A stretch of 33,227 nt of DNA from Bacteroidales bacterium (GTDB taxonomy: Bacteria; Bacteroidota; Bacteroidia; Bacteroidales; F082), in assembly GCA_029933565.1 (NCBI GenBank), contig JAOZNY010000006.1:1-33227 (forward strand), given 5' to 3'. This document shows positions 14,492-16,468 of the stretch, piece after piece (within the stretch, counting starts at the first letter, position 1; every line of letters begins with the position of its first letter). The position numbers and the translations under genes are program-made. The notes below the pieces were generated by a model that did no database searches, was not told the DNA's origin, and worked only from the letters and a program-made list of their open reading frames with translations.

Positions 14492-14833
14492 TTACTTCAC
14501 ACTTTCGTCTCTTTCCTTTTTTTCAAGAAAATGACCAATTACAAGTGCTATTCCACCAAATAGAAATATCATCGAAAAATATGCTGGATTTTCCGGTAAT
14601 AATTCCATGCTGTTAAGAACTCCTCCCAACAGCAAGCCAAGTGCGGCTCCAATAAATAATAGTCCTATTTTTAAGGCAGAAAAACCCTGTGGTTTGTTTG
14701 GGCTTAAAAATATTGAGGCATCAACACCTTTTTCAAGTAATTTAAACCTTTCGCTTCTTCTAATCATTAAAAAGATTACTGAATAACTAAATCCAAAAAT
14801 AATTGCGGTAATAAAAATTGGTTCTAATTCCAT
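14492..14833 (-). CDS. DUF6249-type membrane protein
   Basis: A 113-residue protein with three hydrophobic helices (about 6-24, 53-72 and 84-101) and a basic loop MIRRSERFKLLEKGVDASIF after the first. This pattern and the ending IGHFLEKKER match DUF6249, a Bacteroidota inner-membrane family often found near an ECF sigma factor. No sigma factor is present here. Function unknown. The 3' end runs close to the repeat at 14331-14444. Confidence 0.75.
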   Translation of the reverse strand: MELEPIFITAIIFGFSYSVIFLMIRRSERFKLLEKGVDASIFLSPNKPQGFSALKIGLLFIGAALGLLLGGVLNSMELLPENPAYFSMIFLFGGIALVIGHFLEKKERDESVK

Positions 14834-14917
14834 TGTTTTATAATTTAATTATGATTTATACGTTTTGCTTTTTTGACGCCATACTTGTTTTAAGGTTACA
14901 TAATTTCAGTTTTTTCA

Positions 14918-14925
14918 TATATTTG
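14918..14925 (+). promoter_or_regulatory. Probable tnaA -7 element
   Basis: TATATTTG matches TAnnTTTG. It predicts a leader of about 160 bases before the tnaA start codon. No good -33 box is seen 20 bases upstream. Confidence 0.5.
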
Positions 14926-14949
14926 TGCCACATTAACGGGAGAGTTTTC

Positions 14950-15021
14950 ATGAGTAACATTCTTCAAATAACCAAAAAAAGTACTTTTCGCAGCATTAAA
15001 AAACGCGATAGTTTTGCATAG
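14950..15021 (+). CDS. Possible 23-codon leader peptide of tnaA
   Basis: ATG at 14950 opens a 23-codon frame, MSNILQITKKSTFRSIKKRD then SFA, ending at TAG 11 bases before the terminator hairpin at 15032. It lies 24 bases after the -7 element, so it would be at the 5' end of the tnaA transcript. Unlike TnaC leaders of enterobacteria it has no tryptophan, so tryptophan sensing by the nascent chain is not supported. It is basic and could simply be chance. Codon AGC-ATT and the next base (GCATTA, 14993-14998) could pair with TAATGC (15029-15034), which overlaps the terminator's left arm. Confidence 0.35.
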   Translation: MSNILQITKKSTFRSIKKRDSFA

Positions 15022-15031
15022 TACTTCCTAA

Positions 15032-15065
15032 TGCCTTTCCAAAAAAGGCAGTTTTTAATTTTCTT
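15032..15065 (+). terminator. Intrinsic terminator inside the tnaA leader
   Basis: TGCCTTT-ccaaa-AAAGGCA (15032-15050) is a perfect 7-bp stem followed by GTTTTTAATTTTCTTT. It lies upstream of tnaA and downstream of the tnaA promoter, so it would cut tnaA expression unless an alternative fold forms. Confidence 0.6.
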
Positions 15066-15091
15066 TCATAATAATTTTAAAAATCAAATCA

Positions 15092-16468
15092 ATGGAATTA
15101 CCATTTGCAGAATCATTTAAAATAAAAATGGTGGAGTCGATTAAGCGAAGTACCCGCCAGAACAGAATAAAATGGATTGAAGAAGCGAAGAATAACCTCT
15201 TTAATCTAAGTAGCGACAAGGTTTTTATTGACCTGCTCACCGACTCAGGAACAGGTGCCATGAGCGATAAACAATGGTCGGAAATGATGCTCGGTGACGA
15301 AAGTTACGCAGGAGCGTCATCTTTTTTTAAACTTAAAAATGCAATAAAAGACATTACAGGTTTCGATTATTACCTTCCAACACACCAGGGAAGAGCAGCA
15401 GAAAATGTATTGTTTTCAGCAAAAATTAAAGAGGGAAACCTGGTTCCCGGAAATACCCATTTCGATACCACAAAAGGGCATATTGAATTTAGAAAGGCTT
15501 ATGCTATTGACTGCACTATCGATGAAGCATTTGACACAGCCATCGATCACCCTTTCAAGGGAAACCTTGATTTAATTAAATTGGAGAATGTACTTAAGAG
15601 CAATCCTAAGGAAAATATTCCATTAATTATTGTTACTATTACCTGCAACTCTTCGGGTGGTCAGCCGGTTTCTATGGAAAACCTTAAGGCAGTAAGGCAA
15701 ATGTCTGACAAATATGGAATTCAGGTGTTTTTCGATTCGGCTCGTTTTGCCGAAAATGCATACTTCATTAAAATACGTGAAAAAGGATATGCCCATAAAA
15801 GCATTCGCGAAATAGTTAAGGAAATGTTTTCGTATGCCGATGGAATGACAATGAGTGCCAAAAAGGATGCTATTGTAAATATGGGCGGTTTTATCGGGTT
15901 CAGAAATAAAGACGATTACGATGATGCAAGTGTTTTTAACATTATGTTCGAAGGTTATCTTAGTTATGGAGGAATGTCGGGCCGCGATATGAATGCACTT
16001 GCACAAGGACTCTACGAAGGAACCGAATTTGATTATCTGGAAACAAGGATCTCGCAAGTGGCCTATCTGGGGCAAAAACTTAAAGATTACGGCGTTCCTG
16101 TACAATATCCGTTTGGTGGCCATGCTATTTTTGTTGATGCCAAAAAATTCCTTCCTAACATTCCGAAAGAGGAATATATTGCCCAAACACTTGCTGTTGA
16201 ACTTTATATTGAAGGAGGCGTTCGCGGAGTAGAAATTGGTACATTGCTAGCCGATAGGGATCCTGAGACAGGAATAAACCGATATCCCGAATTAGAGTTA
16301 ATGAGACTTACTATTCCAAGAAGGGTTTATACCAACAACCATATTGACTATGTTGCTGCTGCCCTAATTAATGTTTACGACAGAAGGAATGGTATTACCA
16401 AAGGTTTTAAAATAACTAAGGAAGCACCTATTTTAAGGCATTTTACTGTTAGTTTGGAGAGGGTTTAG
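15092..16468 (+). CDS. tnaA: Tryptophanase
   Basis: A 458-residue PLP enzyme that splits tryptophan to indole, pyruvate and ammonia. FIDLLTDSGTGAMSDKQW, LPTHQGRAAEN, FDSARFAENAYFIK and MSAKKDA (PLP lysine about 258) are fold-I beta-eliminating lyase motifs. Tyrosine phenol-lyase is close, but HFDTTKGH, FDSARFAENA and GVRGVEIGTLLADRDP follow tryptophanase: the phenol-lyase arginine expected in VRSMERG is isoleucine here. The C-terminus LRHFTVSLERV is complete. It stands alone, with no neighbouring tryptophan permease, and a possible attenuator precedes it. Confidence 0.92.
   Translation: MELPFAESFKIKMVESIKRSTRQNRIKWIEEAKNNLFNLSSDKVFIDLLTDSGTGAMSDKQWSEMMLGDESYAGASSFFKLKNAIKDITGFDYYLPTHQGRAAENVLFSAKIKEGNLVPGNTHFDTTKGHIEFRKAYAIDCTIDEAFDTAIDHPFKGNLDLIKLENVLKSNPKENIPLIIVTITCNSSGGQPVSMENLKAVRQMSDKYGIQVFFDSARFAENAYFIKIREKGYAHKSIREIVKEMFSYADGMTMSAKKDAIVNMGGFIGFRNKDDYDDASVFNIMFEGYLSYGGMSGRDMNALAQGLYEGTEFDYLETRISQVAYLGQKLKDYGVPVQYPFGGHAIFVDAKKFLPNIPKEEYIAQTLAVELYIEGGVRGVEIGTLLADRDPETGINRYPELELMRLTIPRRVYTNNHIDYVAAALINVYDRRNGITKGFKITKEAPILRHFTVSLERV

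Follow-up and report, generated by a model that had tools for sequence, protein, structure and literature searches.

A conserved leader-peptide family, probably acting by ribosome arrest, upstream of the tryptophanase gene in Bacteroidales

Introduction

Sensing of a free amino acid by the ribosome has its textbook example in TnaC, a leader peptide of enterobacteria and related groups, and tna control in Escherichia coli uses Rho. Expression of tnaA in this organism is controlled by free L-tryptophan via arrest on TnaC (PMC8429421, PMC10941005), in which the Trp residue W12, Asp D16, and the terminal Pro P24 are essential (PMC3902921). In the transcriptome of Bacteroides thetaiotaomicron, leader-like small ORFs have been reported in long 5′ untranslated regions, with neither tnaA nor tryptophan mentioned (PMC7366714). 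A search of open-access literature returned no account of a leader upstream of tnaA in Bacteroidota, and since it was limited to such work, the novelty of the system presented here is provisional.

Organization of the tnaA locus

The window, that is, the whole stretch of 33,227 nucleotides of Bacteroidales DNA analysed here, carries tnaA on the forward strand (15092–16468, ATG at 15092), present as one copy in the genome. The 458-residue product scores 846 bits against the tryptophanase model NF053783 (cut-off 750), which identifies it as a genuine tryptophanase, and this is the gene taken to be controlled by the elements that precede it on the same strand. The most distal of them is a −7 promoter element of the Bacteroidota type, TATATTTG (14918–14925), read from the sequence, a few bases 3′ of which the transcript would start. 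It is followed by a leader ORF of 23 codons, MSNILQITKKSTFRSIKKRDSFA (14950–15021, ATG at 14950, TAG at 15019–15021), recognized from the sequence and from homologous ORFs, and then by an intrinsic terminator (15032–15056), consisting of a 7-bp stem with the arms TGCCTTT (15032–15038) and AAAGGCA (15044–15050), a loop of five nucleotides, a G, and a T-run (15052–15056), with a folding energy of −7.5 kcal/mol given by RNAfold. This order of promoter box, ORF, hairpin with T-run, and tnaA, read by the earlier note from the DNA of the window, was recovered with every element in its place.

Farther upstream, an arrangement GACGC-N14-GGTTACA located 5′ of the −7 box was considered as an operator of tnaA and set aside, since its occurrences elsewhere match the opposite, divergent strand, where it reads TGTAACC-N14-GCGTC. 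In the window the latter element (14875–14900, reverse strand) lies 41 nucleotides before a divergent gene of 113 amino acids (14492–14833, reverse strand), encoding a DUF6249 membrane protein according to Pfam, and its sequence looks like a promoter for a sigma factor of the ECF type. In relatives the element precedes genes of DUF6249 proteins, as well as sigma factor-like (RNA polymerase) and PspC-like genes, with the names in relatives assigned by eye, and all of these possibly form a small autoregulated regulon.

Conservation of the leader peptide

Regions upstream of tnaA were gathered from genomes belonging to the genus, the family, and the order of the window, as well as from 80 named genome contigs, and removal of duplicates left 108 distinct regions, from which 72 non-redundant leaders were taken for the statistics of the motif. 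The loci come mostly from metagenome-assembled genomes, with the cultured isolate Ancylomarina sp. 16SWW S1-10-2 among the leader carriers, and since the leaders are related by descent, the counts given here do not represent independent events. A short ORF with a common end motif is present in 95 of the 108 regions. The point missed by the earlier note is that the conserved element is the peptide itself (NIKxRDx[FY]), common to most tnaA genes of the order. The 23-codon ORF of the window is a member of this previously unrecognized family of leader peptides, which are 20–30 residues long, carry a near-invariant motif at their end, and are located directly 5′ of the tryptophanase gene in many Bacteroidales.

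Column counts over the 72 leaders yield the consensus [FY]-[LRK]-N-[IVL]-K-x-R-D-x-[FY], positioned near the stop codon of the ORF, with the Lys, Arg, and Asp residues invariant. As the expression used for the motif search already included R and D, and K or R, controls by strand and by shuffling are of importance here, and the strict motif was found in 93 of 95 sense regions, compared to none of 95 antisense and none of 95 shuffled ones; the flanking aromatic residues and the close-by stop were outside this pre-selection. The claim that the ORF encodes a real, translated leader peptide is borne out. Within the motif segment the synonymous sites are saturated (pS 1.01) and pN is as low as 0.22, and the invariant Arg is encoded by all six of its codons in different leaders, which together indicate that selection acts on the peptide and not on the letters of the RNA. 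In the window the corresponding segment, F-R-S-I-K-K-R-D-S-F (14986–15015), is the proposed arrest segment on the basis of column counts, codon usage, and pN/pS.

Such strong conservation of amino acids in the C-terminal part would also be expected of a microprotein acting in trans, for example, as a regulator or partner of TnaA, the position of which would reflect co-expression only. This alternative is very improbable, as the N-terminal half of the peptide is nearly unconstrained (pN 0.61, pS 0.76), the motif always adjoins a stop and lies between the promoter and tnaA, and immediately 3′ of the leader there is an enrichment of RNA elements able to interact with its end (described below).

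As read directly from its sequence, the peptide of the window has no Trp, as the earlier note had observed, and this residue is present in only two of the 72 leaders of the family. The Trp residue needed by E. coli TnaC is thus missing, and no feature of the sequence identifies a ligand, which leaves room for an arrest architecture that was kept while responding to a different stimulus, such as indole, another aromatic amino acid, a polyamine, an antibiotic, or the general state of translation. We consider a stimulus of this kind unlikely, since the association with tnaA alone across many lineages favours a substrate or product of TnaA.

The distance between the motif and the stop is 2–9 residues in most leaders, with outliers at 15 and 22. 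The latter are found in two leaders, L021 and L044, in which the stop follows the RD pair by 22 and by 15 or more residues, respectively, compared to 2–6 as a rule; these natural variants could show whether arrest takes place at the stop codon or at the motif.

Distribution of the leader and spacing of the promoter

The leader is located upstream of 93 of 98 tnaA genes with protein identity of at least 70%, whereas in the bins of 40–59% identity it was found in only three of 51 regions. By inspection, these three cases are L187 and short loci with identity extending over about 30 residues. L187, which belongs to another order (60% identity), has a recognizable version of the motif, YILIKERDQFT, followed directly by the stop codon. 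A search of 61 genomes for the motif away from tnaA gave matches in chance-like places only, and those matches, being inside longer proteins or outside the context of a leader, were judged to be due to chance.

Boxes of the form TAnnTTTG are concentrated 60–80 nucleotides 5′ of the motif (61 occurrences in 72 leaders), and one is present within 12–80 nucleotides of the ATG in 66 of the 70 leaders that have an ATG. The number of codons ahead of the Asn of the motif is 12, 14, or 16 in most leaders. In the leaderless loci L153, L160, and L161 a TAnnTTTG box is found shortly 5′ of the ATG of tnaA itself, as though the switch were missing from between promoter and gene.

Adjacent pairs of leaderless tnaA-like genes, with about 50% identity, are frequent in other orders of the class (e.g., G125:C13, G087:C11, G279:C6, and G256:C86). 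Six genomes (G120, G156, G187, G305, G343, and G349) contain frames of about 850–900 amino acids with two tandem tryptophanase-like matches, apparently fused, duplicated β-eliminating lyases.

RNA elements following the leader

In the genus of the window, a hairpin starts 10–13 nucleotides downstream of the leader stop, counted from its first base, and this position is kept while the stems themselves differ, being TGCCTTT/AAAGGCA in the window, TCCTTCA/TGAAGGA in L003 and L006, GCCTTCA/TGAAGGC in L084, and GTCTTCA/TGAAGAC in L005. The changes are compensatory among these congeners, which are few, and L006 is without a good T-run. Across the family, terminator-like hairpins are found 3′ of the leader stop in 37.5% of leaders compared to 7.5% of dinucleotide shuffles at a score of 10, and in 12.5% compared to 1.1% at a score of 16, an enrichment of 5–10 times on an ad hoc score that combines a hairpin with a T-run. 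Both the congeneric stems and this enrichment uphold the assignment of an intrinsic terminator 5′ of tnaA in this genus. In the comparison with relatives proposed by the earlier note, where absence of any conservation would have spoken against a leader, the ORF was found to be conserved throughout the family and the hairpins within the genus. An inverted repeat, TATCGC ... GCGATA, is also present inside the leader ORFs of L005, L006, and L084 and, in a weaker form, in that of the window, and is possibly a pause hairpin for RNA polymerase.

The same note had proposed two mutually exclusive folds, with GCATTA (14993–14998) pairing with TAATGC (15029–15034). The letters are indeed present, but the pairing is found in none of four congeneric leaders and is not used in the minimum-energy fold of the window leader calculated with RNAfold. 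Together with the ORF and the terminator, this potential pairing is what would be expected of an attenuator of the trpL type, in which the speed of the ribosome at codons for a scarce amino acid selects one of two RNA folds. Such codon counting is extremely improbable here: the pairing is missing in the congeners, the leaders contain no run of repeated codons for any single amino acid, and conservation falls on N, I, K, R, D, and aromatics, with Trp as rare as stated above. The view of the earlier note that the leader is not a Trp-codon attenuator holds.

Terminators follow the leader stop in about one-third of leaders. In other lineages the end of the leader can form a helix with bases close to the start of tnaA, with a score of at least 18 in 16% of leaders (about one in seven) compared to 1.9% of shuffles. 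In L036 this helix, formed by the leader end and bases just 5′ of the tnaA ATG, is TTTTTCCTGAA/TTCAGGAAAAA, and two sister leaders have the helices AGGTATTGATT/AATCAATACCT (L028) and GGATATTGATT/AATCAATATCT (L135). Hairpins and helices together cover roughly 40% of leaders, with none recognized in the rest; neither a clear terminator nor a start-hiding helix is present in 49 of 85. The stretch behind the stop is, overall, rich in C and poor in G, with C exceeding G in 62 leaders and the reverse in five, compared to 43 and 27 for other genes (Mann–Whitney p = 7e-7 for the excess of C over G), a composition compatible with, though not proof of, the loading of Rho. The assertion that transcription is stopped independently of Rho applies to the genus of the window and to some others, but not to the system as a whole.

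The hairpins of the leader and the C-rich stretch behind its stop could also be viewed as parts of an RNA sensor, either a riboswitch or a protein-binding site, with the ORF being incidental. We give this explanation almost no credence, as the peptide is conserved while synonymous change is saturated, and as no Rfam family was found in the leader region of the window at the gathering score, with the matches below it, obtained with relaxed thresholds, being at the level of chance and none of them credible.

On a quick tree of TnaA, with output states assigned by simple thresholds, the status of the terminator changes at least 18 times, that of the helix seven times, and the presence of the leader five times, while the motif of the peptide stays. 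The RNA output behind the conserved peptide differs between lineages. An attempt to locate the arrest codon from the position of the hairpin failed to discriminate between the candidates, with standard deviations of 5.3 nucleotides measured from the stop and 5.6 nucleotides measured from the RD codons.

Proposed mechanism

Comparison of the leaders suggests that the encoded peptide is likely to arrest the ribosome and thereby to control tnaA in cis, with stalling switching the gene on. In the presence of an inducer, which is most likely the TnaA substrate L-tryptophan in its free form, the [FY]xNIKxRDx[FY] segment of the nascent chain would halt the ribosome from within the exit tunnel, either at the leader stop codon or just before it. 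In the window the halted ribosome would block the action of the terminator, in some relatives it would block the helix hiding the start of tnaA, and where only a C-rich stretch follows the leader it might block Rho, with tnaA being expressed in each case. With no inducer present, the ribosome would be released, the terminator would form, and transcription would stop at about 15056–15060. The arrest and the codon at which it takes place, the inducer, and a part played by Rho in the leader system are all inferred here.

Peptide-dependent arrest is the best explanation of the data because one conserved nascent chain is combined with exchangeable outputs, the left arms of which are near the end of the leader; since these arms lie where a stalled ribosome would sit, the terminator and the helix both predict that stalling turns tnaA on. 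Purifying selection on the last ~10 residues, a promoter box at a constant distance, and the exclusive association with tnaA support this reading as well. Three observations count against it. The stem in the window starts at the very edge of a footprint of the E. coli type, 13 nucleotides from the first stop base; over half of the leaders have no clear terminator or start-hiding helix; and the variable distance between the motif and the stop is unusual for strict termination arrest, so that arrest might instead take place during elongation, at the motif.

We can speculate further that Bacteroidales evolved an arrest peptide that responds to Trp while containing none, independently of TnaC, that this peptide forms its own ligand site with the Bacteroidota ribosome, and that it was wired to terminators, to Rho, and to the hiding of the start; the chances of this fuller scenario fall somewhat short of even. 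A second peptide family, unrelated in sequence and located before the same enzyme in a different phylum, would imply that nascent-chain control of tryptophanase either has several origins or has changed past recognition, and would open two answers to a single sensing problem to structural comparison. The leader would also provide a handle on the production of indole by Bacteroidales, in which the control of tnaA appears to be undescribed in the open literature.

Comparison with known systems

The profiles of the TnaC family, PF08053 and TIGR02616, recognize the E. coli peptide (NC_000913) with E-values of 3.7e-20 and 1.1e-11, whereas none of the Bacteroidales leaders tested matched either of them at E up to 1. 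Kinship was also considered on account of a shared [WF]-x-N-I spacing, but on the profile of the Bacteroidales family 53% of TnaC shuffles do no worse than TnaC itself; in view of this result and of the failed matches to the TnaC profiles, kinship with TnaC was dropped. Of the hallmarks of arrest peptides, a conserved C-terminal motif with free synonymous change is present in the Bacteroidales leaders. For another, a following RNA element that a stalled ribosome would alter, there are candidate hairpins and helices in the roughly 40% mentioned above and none recognized in the remainder, and the window itself is a borderline case in its spacing.

The enterobacterial leader SpeFL, which arrests in response to ornithine upstream of speF, is similar to the presumed arrest leader in being a metabolite-sensing nascent peptide ahead of the enzyme that consumes the metabolite, although the gene, the phylum, and the peptide are all different. 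In the erm and cat translation attenuators a stalled ribosome exposes a start, and the pairing of the leader end with bases before the tnaA start resembles them in some Bacteroidales lineages; however, there is no link to an antibiotic, and a terminator takes the place of the helix in further lineages that have the peptide. The closest counterpart is TnaC of the tnaCAB operon of E. coli and Proteus, which is likewise encoded by a short leader ORF between the promoter and tnaA, relies on a conserved peptide rather than on a codon run, has its motif no farther than about 12 residues from the end of the leader, and follows the logic, expected for Bacteroidales too, in which stalling turns tnaA on. 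Unlike TnaC, however, the Bacteroidales peptide is of unrelated sequence, has no set corresponding to W12, D16, and P24, and presents its invariant K, R, and D in another arrangement, and many lineages use an intrinsic terminator or a start-hiding helix where E. coli uses Rho. The Bacteroidales leader would therefore be TnaC-like in its logic without being a TnaC.
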